Below are positions 36,577 to 53,000 of a DNA stretch of 64,000 nt, piece after piece. Numbering within the stretch: the first letter of the stretch is position 1; the number at the start of each line of letters is the position of its first letter. Source of the stretch: Donghicola tyrosinivorans (lineage in GTDB: Bacteria > Pseudomonadota > Alphaproteobacteria > Rhodobacterales > Rhodobacteraceae); NCBI RefSeq assembly GCF_003003355.1, contig NZ_PVTQ01000016.1:1-64000 (forward strand). The letters are read 5' to 3'. The notes under the pieces are model-generated. The model did not search any database. It was not told the origin of the DNA and saw only the letters and a program-made list of their open reading frames with translations. The translations under genes and the position numbers were made by a program.

Positions 36577-38301
36577 ATGGCGCATCAGGCACATCAGGAC
36601 TTCAGAAACATTCTCGAAAGCCCCCTGTTCCGGCTCGAGACTGTTTTCAGCCGGGTCACAGACAACCTTTTCACGGCCTCGGACAAGGCCACCGGCCTGA
36701 AAACCGCCGTGGGCCAGCTGGTCGAGGTCACAACCCCTGCCAAGCTGACCAAGGTGTCTGAAGGGCTGGACGAAGTGCAGCAACTGCGCCAGTCCATCGA
36801 TACGATGATCCAGACCAGTCAGGGGTTTGTCCATCATATCGCCGCCAACCGTCGCAAGATGAACGCGGACCTCAAGGATCTGGCCGAGAACATCCATTCA
36901 GCCGGGATCGTGTCCCTGAACGCACGTATCATCGCGCAGGGCCACCGCGCCCTGAAGCAAGGCGAACAACTGGTCCGTCTGGCCGAGAATATCTCGGGCA
37001 TCACCGAAAGCGCCTCGGGTCAGGTGACCGAGATGCTGAAGGCGACCGAGGCCATCACCCGCGCCCTGACCAACCTGACCGCAATGGCCGAGGATCGCGC
37101 AGTTATGCTGGCAGACAGGTCCCTGCCCGACATGGTGCGGACGGATGAAGTTCTAAGCACCCTGCATCGTGGCATGACTTCGTCGCAGGATGGGGCAAAG
37201 TGGCTGTCCGACTATCTGGGCCGGATCGAATACGACGTGATGCGCGTGATCGAGGTTCTGCAGATCGGCGACCGCGCCCGCCAGCGCGCCGAGCATATCC
37301 AGCAAATCCTGAACGAAGCCCGCAGCTTCCCCGAAGGTTCGGTGGAACAAAATGCCCTGCGCAAGATGGCTCGCGCCCAGTTGCAGCAAGCGGCCGAGCA
37401 TACCTTGCAGTCGGCCGAGAAAGGCGTAAAGCACCTGTCCGGTCTGGCCGCTGAACTACAGACCTACAGCGCCCATTGCAGCGCCTTGCAGAAATCCTTC
37501 CGTGGCAAGCAGGGGATGGTGGCCGACTCCAGCGATCTGGAAACCCGCCTAGAACAGTTCCGTTCGGTCAGCAGCTGCTCGGACACGACTAAGTCCTGTA
37601 TGAGCACGATCTTTGACTATGAGAACGCCCTGCACCAGTACAGCAAAGAGCTGGGGAATGCGGCCTTCTCGATGCAGTTGGCCTCGCTGAACACGATCAT
37701 CGCTTGTGCCCGCGAGGGCCGTGCCGCGGCGGATATGATTGTGATCTCGCAGCAGGTGAACTCTGTCGTATCCACGGTGCCCGAGCTTTTCGAAAGCTTT
37801 ACCGGCGCCTATGAGCAAACCAAGACAGAGCTGAACGGCTTTATGCAGGTGTCCAGCATTGACGCCGAAGCCCGCCATCTGAGCGAAGCCGCCGTCGAGG
37901 TTCTGCCCGCGCTGGCCCACGCCCTAAGCGATCTGCTGCCCCGCCTATCGGGCGATGCCGAGCAACTGGCCCGCGCTGTTGCTGCCGCCGATCAGCTGCT
38001 GGCCAGTCTGGTGACCGATCTACGCGCTTCGCTGAAAGGCGCTAACGCCGCCCCCGGCCCGCGTATCCCGACCGTGGCAGCCGAGGCACGTTTCTATCGT
38101 GCCACAGACCGTCTGCGCCGAATCTACACCATGGAAGAAGAGCGCTCGCTGCACGACGAAATCCTTGAGCCACTGCTGCGTGAACGCCCCGACGGGGCGC
38201 CCGCGGCACCGGCAAAGGCTGCGGCTCCCAAGGCGGCAGCCCCTGCGCCTGCCCCTGCTGCCGAAGCTGCGGATGACGATCTGTCTGACATCCTGTTCTA
38301 A
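36577..38301 (+). CDS. Soluble MCP-like coiled-coil protein with CheZ-like motifs
   Basis: A 574-residue cytoplasmic, mostly helical protein closing the che operon, 16 nt after cheB. It has no membrane segment. Two segments resemble receptor hairpin tips: IVSLNARIIAQGHRALKQGE (112-131) and QLASLNTIIACAREGRAA (367-384). Between them is VIEVLQIGDRARQRAEHI with Asp232 and Gln236, the same D-x-x-x-Q spacing as the catalytic pair of CheZ. After a long Ala/Pro linker it ends in DDDLSDILF, which looks like the C-terminal CheY-binding peptide of CheZ (DDLLDSLGF). No cheZ, cheX or cheC is seen nearby. I infer a CheY-phosphatase or CheY-binding role; a decoy receptor or scaffold is the alternative. Confidence 0.7.
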   Translation: MAHQAHQDFRNILESPLFRLETVFSRVTDNLFTASDKATGLKTAVGQLVEVTTPAKLTKVSEGLDEVQQLRQSIDTMIQTSQGFVHHIAANRRKMNADLKDLAENIHSAGIVSLNARIIAQGHRALKQGEQLVRLAENISGITESASGQVTEMLKATEAITRALTNLTAMAEDRAVMLADRSLPDMVRTDEVLSTLHRGMTSSQDGAKWLSDYLGRIEYDVMRVIEVLQIGDRARQRAEHIQQILNEARSFPEGSVEQNALRKMARAQLQQAAEHTLQSAEKGVKHLSGLAAELQTYSAHCSALQKSFRGKQGMVADSSDLETRLEQFRSVSSCSDTTKSCMSTIFDYENALHQYSKELGNAAFSMQLASLNTIIACAREGRAAADMIVISQQVNSVVSTVPELFESFTGAYEQTKTELNGFMQVSSIDAEARHLSEAAVEVLPALAHALSDLLPRLSGDAEQLARAVAAADQLLASLVTDLRASLKGANAAPGPRIPTVAAEARFYRATDRLRRIYTMEEERSLHDEILEPLLRERPDGAPAAPAKAAAPKAAAPAPAPAAEAADDDLSDILF

Positions 38302-39304: not shown

Positions 39305-41101
39305 TCAGTGCCGACGGGCGGGGATCAGCCCGGCAGGAACGGTTTCCGGTTCCTCATTCGCGTCAGGGCATTCTTCGGGCATGACTTCGAAAGTGACATG
39401 AACCCCGTAGCGTTCGTCCTTGTCCTCGACCTCGATCTGGCCTTGCAGCTGGCTGGCGAACGAACGGATCAGTTTTGACCCAAGCGAGGGCACACCGGAT
39501 TTCTCTTCGGCCAGCACGTCACCCTTCGAGTTGACGACACTAAAGCAGACCTTGTTGTCGCCAAGGTCTCCCAAAACGATGGAAATCCAAGGCTGCCCGT
39601 CAGTGCCCCCTTCGATACCGCAGTATTTGACGGCGTTGGTCGCCGCCTCGCAGGCCATCAATGACAAAGGTACCGACTGTTCGGGCGTAATTTCCACGGG
39701 CGCAAGATCGGTACTGATGTTAACGCGGCTGCGGCGGCCATCCATACCGCCGACGATCACCAACTGGTTGATGATGTCTTCCAGCAGCTTGTCCGCCCGC
39801 ACCATCGACAGCTTGCGCGCGGTGTAGAGGTAGCGGTGGATTGCGGCCAAAGCCATGACCCGATCCTGCACGCGGCGCAGCAGGCGCTTTGCCTCCATCG
39901 TCTTGGTATGACGCACCTGCATGTTCATGATCGAGCAGATCAGTTGCAGGTTATTCTTCACCCGATGGTGAACCTCTTTCAGAAGGATGGTCTTTTCGGC
40001 CAGATCCTCTTCGCGCTGGCGTTCTTGGCGGCTGAGGCGGTTCGCCATCTCCCGGAAGGACTGGGCCACGGCCTCCATCTCTTCGGGGGCGTTGTCCAGA
40101 TGGGCGTCTTCCACCTCGGTCCTGCCAGCCGCATAAAGGCGCATCCAGACCCGCAGGCGCTGGATGTGGCGGATCACCAGACGGTGGGTGCCGAAATAGG
40201 CCACGACCACCCCTGCCACCCACATCAACAGCGGGAAATACAGCGCCATCACCCGTCCCATCAACGGGAAGGGTGCGCTGACCTCAGGCTCCCAACTGCC
40301 CATGACGAAAATCTGGTCCTGAATGATCGGGACAACTGCGAACTGCCGTTCTACCCCTGCGCGGTTCAAGCCACGGTGCAGGGAAGAGACCGGATAGACG
40401 AAATCCACCAGCTCTTTTTCCTTGGGCAAAAAATCGTGCAGCTCTGCCTTGGTGAAATCAGCTGCCAGCGGCACGCCGGAACTGCCAAACAGCAGCAAAT
40501 CAACGGTGCTGCCTTCCATCCGCAGCATTTCATGGATCATCGGGTAAGGGATCGAAATCCAGACATAGGCCTGATCTGTGCCATTCGTCTGAATCGGGAC
40601 CGCAACCGACAGCACGATCGGGCCGTCCTCGCCAATCCGGCGGGTGCTGGACCAGAATTCGGCATCGGGATCGCCCTGCTGGATTTTGTCCAAAAGGTCT
40701 TTGCCGATGAATTGCTCGGCAGGACCCGTTGCGGCACCGCAACGCAGGGTGCCATCGCCTTCGATCACGCCAGCCATCACATATTCGCGCGAGGTCTCAA
40801 GGATCGCTTGGGTGACTTGCGTACAAATCGCGGGGTCCGAGAGGAAAACGCTTTCCGCCGCAGCCATCGCGCGGGCCGAGCCGATCGCCGCCTGGATCAC
40901 CTTTTGTACGTTGTTTGCAGCCTTGCCCGTGTTGTCCAGCAACACGCTTTCCGCAAGGTTCGTGGTTTCCTTGATGACCTGAGCGGTCTGGTAGAACGAG
41001 ATCAAGGCCAATGGCAAAATCGCCAAAGTCATGACGGCAATCAACCGCAGGGCAAGCCCTCCGGTCGCCGCCTTTGTTGCCTCAATCATGCTTTTGATCA
41101 T
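39305..41101 (-). CDS. Membrane sensor histidine kinase of the general stress response
   Basis: A 598-residue kinase. TM1 lies at about 18-38, a periplasmic sensor region of roughly 240 residues follows, TM2 is at about 290-310 (FPLLMWVAGVVVAYF), and then come a HAMP-like linker and a HisKA_2-type dimerisation domain with the His in KEVHHRVKNNLQLICSI. The ATPase part has EAATNAVKYCG and the tail SLGSKLIRSFASQLQGQIEV. This class (PhyK-like) phosphorylates PhyR. It overlaps ecfG by 4 nt and ends 36 nt from the entericidin promoter. The stimulus cannot be read. Confidence 0.9.
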   Translation of the reverse strand: MIKSMIEATKAATGGLALRLIAVMTLAILPLALISFYQTAQVIKETTNLAESVLLDNTGKAANNVQKVIQAAIGSARAMAAAESVFLSDPAICTQVTQAILETSREYVMAGVIEGDGTLRCGAATGPAEQFIGKDLLDKIQQGDPDAEFWSSTRRIGEDGPIVLSVAVPIQTNGTDQAYVWISIPYPMIHEMLRMEGSTVDLLLFGSSGVPLAADFTKAELHDFLPKEKELVDFVYPVSSLHRGLNRAGVERQFAVVPIIQDQIFVMGSWEPEVSAPFPLMGRVMALYFPLLMWVAGVVVAYFGTHRLVIRHIQRLRVWMRLYAAGRTEVEDAHLDNAPEEMEAVAQSFREMANRLSRQERQREEDLAEKTILLKEVHHRVKNNLQLICSIMNMQVRHTKTMEAKRLLRRVQDRVMALAAIHRYLYTARKLSMVRADKLLEDIINQLVIVGGMDGRRSRVNISTDLAPVEITPEQSVPLSLMACEAATNAVKYCGIEGGTDGQPWISIVLGDLGDNKVCFSVVNSKGDVLAEEKSGVPSLGSKLIRSFASQLQGQIEVEDKDERYGVHVTFEVMPEECPDANEEPETVPAGLIPARRH

Positions 41102-41649
41102 GCTGCGGGCTTGCCTGACATCACAGAAAGGGTCGCCTTGTCGGTGAAATCCAGCGACTCATTCTCTTCCATCTGCATCAACTCGGCCAGACGCTTGCGG
41201 GCGCGGTTGGTGCGGCTTTTGATGGTGCCGACAGCGCAGCCACACATCTCGGCAGCTTCCTCATAGGAAAAGCCCTCTGCCCCGACCAAGGTCAGTGCTT
41301 CGCGCTGTTCATCATTCAATTGGCTGAAGGCCGCCTCAAAATCGCGCATCGCCATGGTGCCATCGTGGCTGGGTTTCACCGACAACTGCCCCGCCATCAC
41401 GCCTTCAGGGTCTTCAACCTCGCGGCGGCGCTTGCGGTGCAGGGAATAGTAGGTGTTCCGCAGAATGGTGAACAACCACGCACGCATGTTGGTGCCCGCC
41501 TCAAAGCTGTGAAAGTTCGACCACGCCTTCACAACCGCGTCCTGCACCAGATCATCCGCCGTGGCAGAGTTTCTGGTCAAGCTCATGGCAAAGGCGCGCA
41601 TCGCGGGCAAATGCGTGATCAACTCGTCCTTGGGGTCCATGACGCTCAC
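41098..41649 (-). CDS. ecfG: General stress ECF sigma factor EcfG
   Basis: A 183-residue ECF sigma factor that directs RNA polymerase to GGAAC promoters. Region 2 shows ATADDLVQDAVVKAWSNFHSF and NMRAWLFTILRNTYYS; region 4 shows LNDEQREALTLVGAEGFSYE followed by CGCAVGTIKSRTNRARKRL. The start is GTG at 41649, overlapping the nepR stop (GTGA), with GGTGGGG 7 nt upstream; an internal ATG at 41640 is less well placed. Free EcfG activates its own operon in related species, and an EcfG-like promoter is present at 41852. Confidence 0.95.
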   Translation of the reverse strand: MSVMDPKDELITHLPAMRAFAMSLTRNSATADDLVQDAVVKAWSNFHSFEAGTNMRAWLFTILRNTYYSLHRKRRREVEDPEGVMAGQLSVKPSHDGTMAMRDFEAAFSQLNDEQREALTLVGAEGFSYEEAAEMCGCAVGTIKSRTNRARKRLAELMQMEENESLDFTDKATLSVMSGKPAA

Positions 41650-41905: not shown

Positions 41906-42721
41906 ATGACAACTACAAACGGTACCGCCAGCATGTCCGAGGCGATCGCAGCGGATCTGCCCTATCTGCGCCGTTATGCGCGCGCTTTGACGGGGAACCA
42001 GACCTCTGGTGACCGCTTTGCTGTCACCACTCTTGAAGCGATCCTTGCTGATACGTCTATCTTTAATGATTGTTCCTCGCCGCGGGTCGCATTGTTCAAA
42101 GTGTTCAATTCGATCTGGGTCTCGCTTGGATCGCCGGTTGATGAAAGCGGCGCCACCGGCCCCGAGGCCCGCGCCCAGTTGCGTCTATCGCGACTGACCA
42201 AAAACACCCGCGAAGCTCTGCTGCTGCACAGCATCGAAGGGTTCACCACCAATCAGATCGGCGAGATCATGAACGTTTCCGGTGATGAGGCCGCGCAACT
42301 GCTGGAGATCGGCCGCGACGAGATGCAGAAATCGATCCTTGGCAACATCATGATCATCGAGGACGAGGCCATCATCGCCATGGACATCTCCGAGATCGTC
42401 GCCAGCATGGGCCACGAGGTCACCGGCATCGCCCGCACCAAAACGGCAGCGGTAGAACTGGCTCGCAAATCGCCCCCCGATATGATCCTGGCTGACATCC
42501 AACTGGCCGACAAATCCTCGGGCATTGATGCGGTCAACGACATTCTGGCCGAGCTTGGCGACCGCCCCGTCGTCTTTATCACCGCCTTCCCCGAGCGTCT
42601 GCTGACCGGCGATCGCCCCGAGCCTGCCTTCCTGATCACTAAGCCCTACAGCGAAGATCAGGTCCGGTCGGCGGTGGCGCAGGCCATGTTCTTTACCAGC
42701 ACCGAGACGCTGAACGCCTAA
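41906..42721 (+). CDS. phyR: Anti-anti-sigma response regulator PhyR
   Basis: A 271-residue regulator with an N-terminal sigma-like domain (about 1-140, with LPYLRRYARALTGNQTSGDR and LLLHSIEGFTTNQIGEIMNV) that mimics EcfG and binds NepR, and a C-terminal receiver (about 148-265). The receiver has IIEDEAIIAMDI, phosphoacceptor Asp197 in MILADIQLAD, and Lys in FLITKPYSEDQV. Phosphorylation opens the protein to titrate NepR. TGAGG lies 5 nt before the ATG. It is divergent from nepR-ecfG, the classic arrangement. Confidence 0.96.
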   Translation: MTTTNGTASMSEAIAADLPYLRRYARALTGNQTSGDRFAVTTLEAILADTSIFNDCSSPRVALFKVFNSIWVSLGSPVDESGATGPEARAQLRLSRLTKNTREALLLHSIEGFTTNQIGEIMNVSGDEAAQLLEIGRDEMQKSILGNIMIIEDEAIIAMDISEIVASMGHEVTGIARTKTAAVELARKSPPDMILADIQLADKSSGIDAVNDILAELGDRPVVFITAFPERLLTGDRPEPAFLITKPYSEDQVRSAVAQAMFFTSTETLNA

Positions 42722-43657: not shown

Positions 43658-43682
43658 GGAACCTTTCTAGCCCACATGCGTT
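43658..43682 (+). promoter_or_regulatory. EcfG-type promoter of the DUF883 gene
   Basis: GGAAC (43658-43662), 16 nt, CGTT (43679-43682). An exact consensus match, 37 nt before the ATG at 43719. It points away from the promoter at 43587-43612, giving a divergent pair. Confidence 0.78.
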
Positions 43683-44046: not shown

Positions 44047-44379
44047 ATGTTCTATGCTCTTCGCTGCTCGGCGCGCCACGTTGCCCGTGCTTTGGCCCTC
44101 TCGGCGGCGGGGGGGGTAATGGTGGCTGTCGGCGCAGGCTTTCTGACAGTTGCCGCATGGATTTTGCTTGCGACATCCTATGACACGCTGACAGCCGCAG
44201 CAGTAATTGGCGCGGTCTATACGGGGGTCGGACTGATCTTGCTTGGGCTAGCAGGACGCCGCTCGCATCGGCATCACTACCACAGCCCGCCGCCGGTCGA
44301 TCCAACTGCCCACTTGGTCGCGCAACTGGCCGAGGGGTTCCTGACAGGCTTGCGCGCCGGACGGCGCAGTAAGCTCTAA
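44047..44379 (+). CDS. Small membrane protein, holin-like (DUF1469 type)
   Basis: A 110-residue protein with two membrane helices (about 18-42 and 50-70) and a His-rich turn RRSHRHHYHS. It is similar in design to phage-holin-superfamily proteins that commonly sit after DUF883 genes; it is not evidence of a prophage. It starts 13 nt after the DUF883 gene and so belongs to the EcfG-driven unit. The role is unknown. Confidence 0.75.
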   Translation: MFYALRCSARHVARALALSAAGGVMVAVGAGFLTVAAWILLATSYDTLTAAAVIGAVYTGVGLILLGLAGRRSHRHHYHSPPPVDPTAHLVAQLAEGFLTGLRAGRRSKL

Positions 44380-44389
44380 ATCACCGCTT

Positions 44390-44412
44390 AGCCCGCCTTC
44401 TGGCGGGCTTTT
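44390..44412 (+). terminator. Rho-independent terminator of the DUF883 operon
   Basis: AGCCCGCC (44390-44397) pairs with GGCGGGCT (44402-44409), loop TTCT, followed by TTT. Confidence 0.82.
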
Positions 44413-44450
44413 GCGTTTCCGACTGTTCGCACCACATCTGCGCTTACATA

Positions 44451-44547
44451 AAAAAACCCCGCCTCAAGGGCGGGGTACAGTAGATTGGGACGAGCCTGCC
44501 CGTCAAAGGCGGGCAAAAACAGTGCTAGGGATTACCACTGTTCTCTT
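44451..44547 (-). ncRNA. Candidate small RNA under EcfG control
   Basis: A non-coding stretch of about 97 nt read on the - strand. It has an EcfG-type promoter in front and ends in an excellent Rho-independent terminator (CCCCGCC at 44457-44463, GGCGGGG at 44469-44475, then six T in - sense). Before it lie two more hairpins: AACAGTG/CACTGTT with loop GTAATCCCTAG, and TGCCCG/CGGGCA with loop CCTTTGA. The CCC-bearing loop and the CGTCCC linker are the kind of C-rich single strands sRNAs use to bind ribosome sites. No gene follows, so it is not a leader. It might instead be only the 3' trailer of the PLDc_N-type gene. Confidence 0.5.
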
Positions 44548-44553
44548 TAAGTA

Positions 44554-44578
44554 AACCGCCGAATCTAGGTTTGGTTCC
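44554..44578 (-). promoter_or_regulatory. EcfG-type promoter facing the candidate sRNA
   Basis: On the - strand GGAAC (44578-44574), 16 nt, GGTT (44557-44554). The spacing and the GGTT variant are the same as at the nepR promoter. The only sequence downstream before a terminator is the 97-nt non-coding segment. Confidence 0.55.
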
Positions 44579-44602: not shown

Positions 44603-44788
44603 TCACATCCGGCCAGCGCGGGGACCGAAAAGCAGCCAAAGGATAAAACCCAGAACCGGTAGCAACAGCACCAGGATAACCCAGATCACCTTACGTCCCG
44701 TTGAGGCCGAAGACCCTACGATTGAGATCAAAGCCCAGACATCCAAAATCAGGACCAACAGGCCGCCTACACCACCAACTTCCAACAT
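44603..44788 (-). CDS. Small PLDc_N-domain membrane protein
   Basis: A 61-residue protein with two membrane helices (about 8-28 and 36-58) and the PLDc_N pattern KVIWVILVLLLPVLGFILWL followed by FGPR. This motif is the N-terminal membrane part of cardiolipin synthases, but here it stands alone without catalytic HKD motifs. GAGGAA lies 9 nt before the ATG at 44788, which favours that start over one 7 codons upstream. It lies in the stress island; a clear GGAAC promoter of its own was not found. Confidence 0.82.
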   Translation of the reverse strand: MLEVGGVGGLLVLILDVWALISIVGSSASTGRKVIWVILVLLLPVLGFILWLLFGPRAGRM

Positions 44789-50085: not shown

Positions 50086-53000
50086 ATGACAATTACTGTC
50101 TCTCTCCGACATGTGACGACGTACAAGTACGACCGGCTGGTTGGTCTTGGCCCTCATGTCGTGCGACTGCGCCCCGCGCCCCACACGCGTACACCTATAA
50201 AGAGTTATGATTTACAGATTACACCAGAAAGCCACTTTTTAAACTGGCAACAAGATGCTTTCGCCAATTGGCAGGCACGGCTGGCATTTCCCGAGAAGGC
50301 GCATGAACTGTCTGTGGCCGTCACACTGGTGGCCGAGATGGTCGCCATCAACCCGTTTGACTTCTTCTTGGACGAATCAGCGCAAGAGGTCCCGTTCGAC
50401 TACGGGCGAGATCTGGAGCGTGATCTGCAACCCTATCTGGCGCAAGTCGATCAGGCCAATGACAGCGCCGAGCATCGCGCAGGGTTTGAGGCGTTTCTTG
50501 CTGCCGCGCCCAAGCCCGAAGGCGGCACGATTGATTGGCTGGTCGCCCTGAACAGCTATCTCCAGCGCGAGATCAACTACACCGTTCGCATGGAACCCGG
50601 TGTGCAGGTGCCCGGTGAAACCGTGACCAAGGCGCTTGGGTCGTGCCGTGACAGTGCTTGGCTGATGGTCGCGATGTTCCGGCGCATGGGCTATGCGGCG
50701 CGCTTTGTGTCGGGATACCTGATCCAGTTGGCCTCGGACGTGAAGGCCGTAGATGGCCCCTCTGGTCCAGAAGAAGATTTCACCGACCTGCACGCATGGT
50801 GCGAAGTTTATTTGCCTGGCGCCGGTTGGGTTGGCCTCGACCCGACATCCGGCCTTTTTGCAGGCGAAGGGCATATTCCGCTGGCATGCACCCCATCGCC
50901 CTCGTCGGCAGCACCGATCACCGGCGCCCATGACAAGGCCGAAGTCTCGTTCGAATTCGAGATGGAAGTCACCCGCATCGCCGAGCCGCCGCGCATCACC
51001 CGTCCGCTGACGCCCGCCCAATGGGCGCAGATCGACCGGGCGGGCAAAGTTATCGACGAGAAGCTGAACCGGAACGATGTACGTCTGACCATGGGCGGCG
51101 AGCCGACCTTTGTGTCCGAATACAACCGCGATGCGGAGGAATGGACCATCGGCGCGGTTGGCCCGACCAAGCGCGGCTTTGCCGATAATCTGATCCACCG
51201 CCTGCGCGATAAATTCGCCCCCGGCGGGGTCATCCACCACGGCCAAGGCAAATGGTATCCGGGCGAGCCTCTGCCACGCTGGGCCTTTGCGCTGATCTGG
51301 CGCGCGGATGAGCAGCCGATCTGGAAAGACCCCAGCCGTTTCACCCGTGAGGCAGCCAAGGATTACACCCATGAGGACGCAGCCGTTCTCATGTCCCATC
51401 TGACGGAAAGCCTTGGCGTGAACGCCGAAGCTGCGATGCCCGCCTATGAAGACCCGCTAGAGTTTCTGGAGCAGGAACATAAGCTGCCCGCCGATGTGTC
51501 CCCAGAAGACAACCGGCTGGAAAACCCCGTAGACCGGATGCGTCTGGCGCGGGTGTTCGATCAGGGGTTCAAAGACCCCGTGGCCTATGTGCTGCCCCTG
51601 CAATTGGCTCAGGCACAGGACAAGCGCAAGAACCAGCGCCGTTTCCGTTGGGAGGCCAGCAAATGGACCACGCGCCGTGGCCAGATCTTCCTGATCCCCG
51701 GTGACAGCCCTGCGGGTTTCCGTCTGCCGCTAAATGCCCTCAGCAGCTACCCCGGTGCGCCGATGGAGCTGTACCGCGATCCAATGACGCAGCCCCGTGA
51801 ACTGGAGCCGGAAACCGAAACTGAGATCGAGGAACAGCGCGCAGAGACGCTCCGCCAGATGCGGATTTCCCGCCGTCAGCAGGATTGGGTTGGTTCAGGC
51901 GGGTTGGTGTCGAACGGCAGTTTCGCCCGCACCGCCCTGAGCATCGAGCCGCGCGATGGCAAGCTGACCATCTTCCTGCCGCCGACAGCGTCGACCGAGG
52001 CCTATCTGGATCTGGTCGAAGCCATCGAAGAGGCGTCCGAGGCCTGCGATCTACCCATCCGTCTGGAAGGGTACGAGCCACCCCACGATCCGCGCTTTAA
52101 CATGATCAAGGTCACCCCCGACCCCGGCGTAATCGAGGTGAACATCCACCCTGCCCAAGGTTGGGACCAGCTGAGCCACATCACCGAAACCCTCTATGAA
52201 GAGGCGCGGCAGTGTGGGCTGGATTCGACGACCTTCCAGATCGACGGGCGCCCTGTGGGGTCCGGCGGCGGCAACCACATTGTGGTGGGCGGGAACACTC
52301 CCGAAGACAGCCCGTTCTTGCGCAGACCGGATGTTCTGGGCTCGATCATCCGCTATTGGCAGAACCACCCTTCGCTGTCCTATCTGTTCTCAGGCCTCTT
52401 CATCGGGCCGACCTCGCAGGCCCCGCGTCTGGATGAGGCCCGCCACGATTCCCTCTATGAGATGGAAATCGCCCTGAAGGAACTGGACCGTCTGGGACCG
52501 AACCCGCCCCTGTGGCTGGTGGACCGCCTGTTCCGCAACCTTCTGGTGGACAGCACCGGCAACACCCACCGCGCCGAGATTTGCATCGACAAGATGTATT
52601 CACCCGACGGTCCGACAGGGCGTCTGGGGCTGGTGGAATTCCGTGGCTTTGAAATGCCGCCCCATTGGCAGATGAGCATGGCGCAGGCCCTGATCATTCG
52701 TGGCCTAATCGCGTGGTTCTGGGAAAAGCCCTATACTGCGGCGCTCAAGCCAATGGGCACCCATCTGCACGACAGCTTCCTGCTGCCAACGCCGCTATGG
52801 GATGACTTCAAGGTCGTTCTGGATGATCTAAGCCGTGCGCACGGGATGAATTTCGACATCGAATGGTACCGCGCGCAGTTGAACTTCCGCTTCCCCGTCG
52901 CGGGCGAAGTCACAGTAGACAACACCAAGATGACCGTCCGCAACGCCATTGAGCCGTGGTTGGTCTTGGGCGAAGAGGGCATCCCCGGCGGTACCGCCCG

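Follow-up and report, generated by a model that had tools for sequence, protein, structure and literature searches.

A structured stretch on the minus strand of the window, i.e., the 64,000-nt piece of Donghicola tyrosinivorans DNA analyzed here, is in all likelihood a genuine RNA gene, as judged from its sequence and that of its relatives. The gene (44548–44450) is held, with fair though lesser confidence, to encode a trans-acting small RNA (sRNA) of Donghicola, which in the window species would have an EcfG promoter of its own and would use UCCC motifs for pairing with G-rich mRNAs. A small RNA gene had been proposed at this site in a preliminary description, and the proposal is well supported by compensatory changes, by unpaired stretches that stay constant, by synteny, and by the finding that every genome has a single strong match.

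Genomic position and fold of the RNA

The RNA locus is flanked by a convergent plus-strand gene pair, encoding DUF883-like and holin-like proteins and ending at 44379, and by a minus-strand PLDc_N gene whose end lies at 44603, in line with the convergent plus-strand operon and minus-strand gene of the preliminary description. The Pfam score of the DUF883-like protein is slightly under the cut-off, and the holin-like gene has a terminator-like site of its own at 44390–44409. Read along the minus strand from 44578 to 44450, the locus consists of an EcfG-type promoter, a structured stretch of ~97 nt, and a terminator (Table 1). The stop codon of the PLDc_N gene is separated from the -35 element of the RNA gene by 24 nt, and the terminator scan of the window reported no minus-strand terminator between the two genes. 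Close proximity to ecfG, nepR, and phyR was found in the window, where the RNA lies ~2.9 kb from ecfG, and likewise in the loci L061 and L062. In addition to ecfG, phyR, and an HWE kinase gene, the neighbors named by Pfam include genes for a ferritin-family protein (Dps-like by reading), a diacylglycerol kinase-like protein, and a metallophosphatase, and the window therefore represents a general stress response island.

Table 1. Predicted elements of the RNA locus and nearby genes in the window.
Feature	Position	Strand	Description
-35 element GGAAC, EcfG-type	44574..44578	-	motif; same form as in the nepR promoter
-10 element GGTT	44554..44557	-	spacer of 16 nt, equivalent to GGAAC-N17-GTT
Predicted transcript	44450..44548	-	~97-99 nt; 5′ end deduced from the -10 element, 3′ end from the T run
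Hairpin 1, stem AACAGUG/CACUGUU	44518..44542	-	covarying pairs
UCCCU in loop 1	44527..44531	-	invariant; proposed seed; UCCC mean unpaired probability 1.0
Hairpin 2, GCCCG/CGGGC	44498..44514	-	from the fold; longer in three relatives
Linker GGCUCGUCCCAAUC	44483..44496	-	14 nt, invariant in four; proposed second seed; UCCC mean unpaired probability 0.85
Intrinsic terminator ACCCCGCC/GGCGGGGU	44450..44476	-	8-bp stem with 7 G-C pairs; T's to 44450
PLDc_N small membrane protein gene	44603..44788	-	upstream of the RNA; PF13396, E 6.4e-13
Holin-like gene (Phage_holin_3_6)	44047..44379	+	convergent to the RNA; Pfam
ecfG, general stress sigma factor	41098..41649	-	Pfam; ~2.9 kb from the RNA
phyR	41906..42721	+	Pfam
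HisKA_2/HWE kinase	39305-41101		Pfam

The 104 nt from 44548 fold with -39.4 kcal/mol (z = -3.69), a stability equaled by none of 200 shuffles, and the RNAs of the relatives likewise fold well (z = -4.32, -4.20, and -3.41). Three hairpins had been described, and the total is right, with the correction that it is made up of two hairpins and the hairpin of the terminator; the same-strand terminator that had been claimed is present. The relatives carry a small extra (third) hairpin, which is absent from the window. The described exposure of C-rich bases holds for UCCCU of loop 1 and GUCCC of the linker and fails for loop 2 of the window, whereas the hairpin 2 loop of L032, L061, and L062 also bears UCCC. 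The C tract near the 5′ end of the RNA is that of loop 1, with three C in a row. A coding reading of the RNA was rejected, as the open frame that runs through the linker and the terminator in L032, L061, and L062 is broken in the window (by eye), and a comparison of frames by eye revealed no ORF common to all four genus RNAs.

Homologues within Donghicola and covariation

The genus (Donghicola, Roseobacteraceae, Rhodobacterales) is represented by the four genomes that were returned when 61 genomes were searched with plain DNA. No convincing match to the RNA lay outside G000 in this search, and thus none in the three remaining Donghicola genomes. When 140 loci were scanned with nhmmer, L032, which had entered via the diacylglycerol kinase search, gave a full-length but weak match and L061 a partial one, and the linker then revealed L062. 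The latter belongs to Donghicola eburneus DSM 29127 and L061 to a metagenome-assembled genome; in coordinates and scores, these two genomes are identical to G001 and G003 of the genus. The window RNA shares an identity of 61–62% with the other three, which are 68–77% identical among themselves. The PLDc_N gene precedes the RNA in every one of the four genus genomes. In L061 and L062, the RNA is also faced by holin-like and DUF883-like genes (by eye).

A covariance model (R1) built from L061, L062, and L032 only, with the window left out, finds the window with 42.5 bits (E 2.5e-9; match 44556–44450) among 82 sources (1.63 Mb), where the best non-member, L082, reaches 27.2 bits. Over 22 whole-genome entries, including two pairs of identical genomes, R1 matched each of the four genus genomes strongly at a single site, and no other match exceeded 29.9 bits. 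The same picture was obtained over 15 genomes with a second model that includes the window (R2), the best other match having 28.2 bits. With R2, L082 reached 31.6 bits, a match that was rejected as terminator-like sequence right after a Dps-like ORF (by eye). In the four-sequence alignment (A4), which was fitted to the model structure so that its pair counts lean towards the model (R1 itself being made without the window), 93.3% of cells are paired, compared with 35.9–54.3% when the partners are slid by 1–3 columns. Two-sided changes occur in 9 of the 28 pairs of these four sequences, on which the covariation rests, vs. 3.1 in shuffles, and none of 500 shuffles scored as high. Hairpin 1 alone has two-sided changes in four of its six pairs, with 100% pairing and a constant UCCCU loop. 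The covariation in homologous regions that the preliminary description had named as a check was thus found within the genus.

In the wider family, R1 was searched over 394 genomes and gave 24 genomes at E <= 3e-4, namely G002 with 131.7 bits and 23 others with 26.6–30.7 bits. Nineteen of these 23 were read (L202–L220) and rejected, as none has an EcfG-like site upstream; seven are SorX-like and the rest terminator-like. This search used stricter filters, under which the window's own match was lost, and therefore does not exclude distant relatives. The pattern CTCGTCCCAATC-N-CCGCC has 18 matches in 17 of 394 family genomes, and those in G000 and G002 were accepted. Nine others (L141–L145, L148, L150, L157, and L158) were discarded for want of the promoter–hairpin–terminator layout; as to the rest, the motif was not found in L149 in the orientation read, and L151–L156 lay outside the reading.

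No Rfam family reached its threshold on the window. The Pseudomonas sRNA P9 (RF00624) scored 39.6 bits there, under its gathering score of 43, with its terminator stem and preceding hairpin aligning to the RNA. However, searches of L061 and L062 that admitted E values up to 1 did not report P9, and it was rejected as the identity of the RNA. Matches over the terminator to anti-hemB (sense) and Hrs1 (antisense) in the window, L061, and L062, and to mmgR in two of these three, all well under the respective gathering scores, were also set aside. SorX (RF02784), which occurs in Rhodobacter, scored 20.2 bits in L061 and 16.6 bits in L062 vs. the 46.6 required and was not reported for the window. 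According to its Rfam name, it is a singlet-oxygen stress sRNA family. A CUUCCUCCCUGUCAGACU-type C-rich non-coding segment followed by a terminator was seen from about 1501 in L202, L206, L207, L209, L212, L213, and L215. Among the five such segments searched in Rfam, L212 alone meets the SorX gathering score (48.6 bits), and all seven are probably SorX homologues.

The promoter and the origin of the transcript

Both the GGAAC-N16-GGTT promoter before the RNA (44578–44554) and its sameness with the variant before nepR (41876–41852), noted in the preliminary description, were borne out. GGAAC-N17-GTT, the form to which this promoter corresponds, has six sites in the window vs. 1.58 expected, and none of 100 shuffles reaches six, while GGAAC-N16-GTT has one site (1.53 expected). 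Across 81 ecfG loci (1.62 Mb), GGAAC precedes CGTT 203 times at N16 and 111 times at N17, compared with 15.1 per other spacing, i.e., the enriched spacings before GTT are N17 and N18. The RNA promoter of the window belongs to this kind, with GGTT instead of CGTT, and the RNA of the window is likely under EcfG control. The general-stress promoter that had been described rests on this consensus motif in the window. In the three congeners the site departs from consensus, the -35 of the L032, L061, and L062 homologues reading G(G)AAAC. In the 81 loci, GAAAC precedes CGTT 21 times at N16 and 24 times at N17 vs. 14.4 per spacing, and also 21 times at N14. This variant is ~1.5-fold enriched at the EcfG spacing, barely above an unrelated spacing, and EcfG control is therefore uncertain in L032, L061, and L062. 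The expected GGAAC upstream of homologues was thus not borne out within the genus, but it stands before RNAs that follow PLDc_N in five other roseobacter loci.

Further GGAAC-N17-GTT sites were seen in the window at 36631–36607(-), 39269–39245(-), 43658–43682(+), and 52292–52316(+), the one at 43658 directly before the DUF883-like gene. The permease gene in L190, L191, L192, and L193 and the PLDc_N gene in L194 have a GGAAC-N17/18-GTT of their own just before the start codon; such permease and PLDc_N genes suggest a wider membrane-stress set under EcfG. Beside PLDc_N, the diacylglycerol kinase-like gene is preceded by a consensus EcfG site in L061 (6870, minus strand) and L062 (6859, minus strand), and in the window the corresponding upstream sequence at about 44914(+) is GGAAC-N17-GTA, with a degenerate -10.

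The constant place of the RNA after PLDc_N (4/4 genus genomes), the window's lack of a reported minus-strand terminator between the two, and the deviating internal -35 in three of the four genomes would also agree with a structured 3′ UTR belonging to the PLDc_N transcript. Such a region would arise by read-through and would either protect this mRNA or be freed from it by processing, the internal promoter having little or no activity. This origin is considered unlikely, if still worth weighing, because in the window a consensus promoter stands directly upstream of the structured part, the constant loop 1 and linker amid changing stems point to pairing over mere stability, and a similar RNA in L063–L065, again GGAAC-promoted, follows a different gene (YihY-like by reading). 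Released 3′ ends can also act as regulators, and a UCCC-pairing function would therefore survive such an origin.

A real sRNA transcribed with another sigma factor, the EcfG motif of the window being coincidental or secondary, is improbable. The G(G)AAAC of three of the four species, a variant at most weakly enriched, would be in line with it, whereas all four genomes have a -10 GTT and a spacing (17 or 18) that suit EcfG, and the sole sigma-70-like site reported between 42500 and 46500 is on the strand opposite to the RNA. The consensus GGAAC at RNAs after PLDc_N in five other loci also argues for EcfG. Finally, a mere terminator region between convergent genes, with hairpins and promoter match arising by chance, is hardly credible, for while GGAAC-N16-GTT and GGAAC-N17-GTT are each expected ~1.5 times per 64 kb and terminator stems yield weak model matches in many genomes, the fold (z = -3.69), the recovery of the window by a model built without it (E 2.5e-9), and the covariation around invariant unpaired stretches speak against it.

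Putative function and counterparts in other roseobacters

UCCC remains constant and accessible between changing stems, the pattern of a base-pairing sRNA with G-rich targets. The putative Donghicola sRNA probably adjusts other mRNAs during stress. We infer the following course of events. Once the general stress response is on, the RNA would be transcribed from its EcfG promoter in the window species, and the unpaired UCCCU loop and the GUCCCAAUC linker, constant between changeable stems, would act as seeds that pair with G-rich stretches, e.g., the Shine-Dalgarno regions of target mRNAs. Hfq, whose gene (PF17209) is present in all four genus genomes, would probably assist the pairing. The outcome would be a post-transcriptional arm of the stress response, like that of GsrN in Caulobacter. 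The invariant 14-nt linker and the constant loop provide exact, mutable seeds.

In Caulobacter crescentus, GsrN is an sRNA behind an EcfG-class promoter that pairs with the G-rich katG leader, according to the accessible portion of its description (Tien, Fiebig, and Crosson, 2018; PMC5869019). In the same portion, predicted GsrN homologues typically lie near the general stress response (GSR) locus, and an exposed C-rich loop near the 5′ end is described; BLASTn hits are confined to Caulobacteraceae, and homologues are predicted in Rhizobiaceae, Brucella, Rhodopseudomonas, and Bradyrhizobium. The window RNA resembles GsrN, as there described, in its EcfG-class promoter, the GSR locus nearby, and the exposed C-rich 5′ loop. 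In contrast to the six tandem C in one 5′ loop of GsrN, the window RNA has UCCCU in loop 1 and a UCCC linker. The katG leader was rejected as a conserved GsrN-type target, since the leader of katG carries no conserved G tract across the four genus genomes; duplex energies computed without accessibility gave no guidance. In the window genome (L198), GATTGGAGCGA just before the katG ATG (about 1444) can pair at 10 of 11 positions, one of them G-U, with UCGUCCCAAUC of the linker, a pairing seen by eye, without background, and missing from the katG leaders of the three relatives. The accessible portion of a study on Rhodobacter sphaeroides ascribes to its PhyR cascade no major role in general stress and a role in membrane stress (PMC5830050), and the stress relevant to the RNA may therefore be narrower.

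As far as the accessible portion of PMC5869019 goes, the general stress response of Alphaproteobacteria has a known sRNA arm in Caulobacter, with predictions for Rhizobiaceae and a few further groups, and the main text there contains no word beginning with Rhodobacter. No description of an EcfG-linked sRNA in Rhodobacterales was found in the accessible portions of the literature on GsrN, roseobacter sRNAs, and the general stress response. Experimentally found sRNAs are listed in a Ruegeria pomeroyi paper (PMC4809877), and a relative of the RNA may already be catalogued in its supplementary sRNA tables, without the EcfG interpretation. A Rhodobacterales member, if true, would suggest that the sRNA arm is a general feature of the alphaproteobacterial stress response, and marine roseobacters would gain a testable post-transcriptional stress regulator.

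Beyond the genus, terminator-ended GGAAC-N16-18-GTT stretches with UCCC or CUCC motifs occur near ecfG in L063, L064, L065, L072, L076, L080, L103, and others. A promoter-plus-terminator scan reduced 344 EcfG motifs to seven C-rich cases (window, L063, L064, L072, L076, L080, and L103) and 882 control motifs to two (P = 0.003, a value computed after the fact, with ORFs of 130 aa masked and the terminator rule changed after a stricter first scan). That first scan, masking ORFs of 60 aa, kept one EcfG and two variant sites as well as one control, which was not C-rich. A GGAAC site lies within 200 nt after PLDc_N in 6 of 29 loci (window, L067, L068, L069, L071, and L072), a count that leaves out L032. 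For other genes in these loci, the count is 118 of 1218 (P = 0.06) and falls to 82 of 1218 (P = 0.013) once ORF-leading sites are excluded, and the synteny argument beyond the genus is therefore of only moderate weight. In L063, L064, and L065, the GGAAC-promoted RNA follows a YihY-like gene (named by reading). Sixteen RNAs contain 31 accessible UCCC vs. 7.0 in shuffles, but nine of these RNAs (L063, L064, L065, L071, L072, L076, L080, L090, and L103) had been preselected for C-richness. The remaining seven contain nine accessible UCCC vs. about 2.1 in shuffles, and all nine are in the four genus RNAs (about 1.3 in shuffles), the RNAs of L067, L068, and L069 having no UCCC above the accessibility cut-off.

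Eight roseobacter RNAs (L063–L065, L067–L069, L071, and L072) are like that of the window in their GGAAC-N17/18-GTT, intergenic position, UCCC, and location within 10 kb of ecfG; five follow PLDc_N and three the YihY-like gene. Unlike the window RNA, they have sequences beyond the reach of the models, except perhaps L063, which aligns from its -10 with 17.3 bits (E 0.06) for R1 and 21.0 bits (E 0.017) for R2 and shares CUCGUCCCA. The L063 RNA, with this weak sequence link, is a probable homologue, and the others are tied by promoter, neighborhood, and motif alone. It is conceivable, albeit tentative, that roseobacters generally possess a fast-evolving EcfG-promoted sRNA near ecfG, with several UCCC and often after a PLDc_N or YihY-like gene. 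If true, this would be the Rhodobacterales counterpart of GsrN, in which promoter, place, and UCCC display are kept while stems and sequence turn over. A neighbor search with the convergent permease returned 9 of 34 genomes, among which no clear new member was seen. As DNA queries against 50 genomes, the L064 RNA matched one, namely its own, and the L068 RNA matched nine, i.e., its own, one at 90%, and seven weakly.
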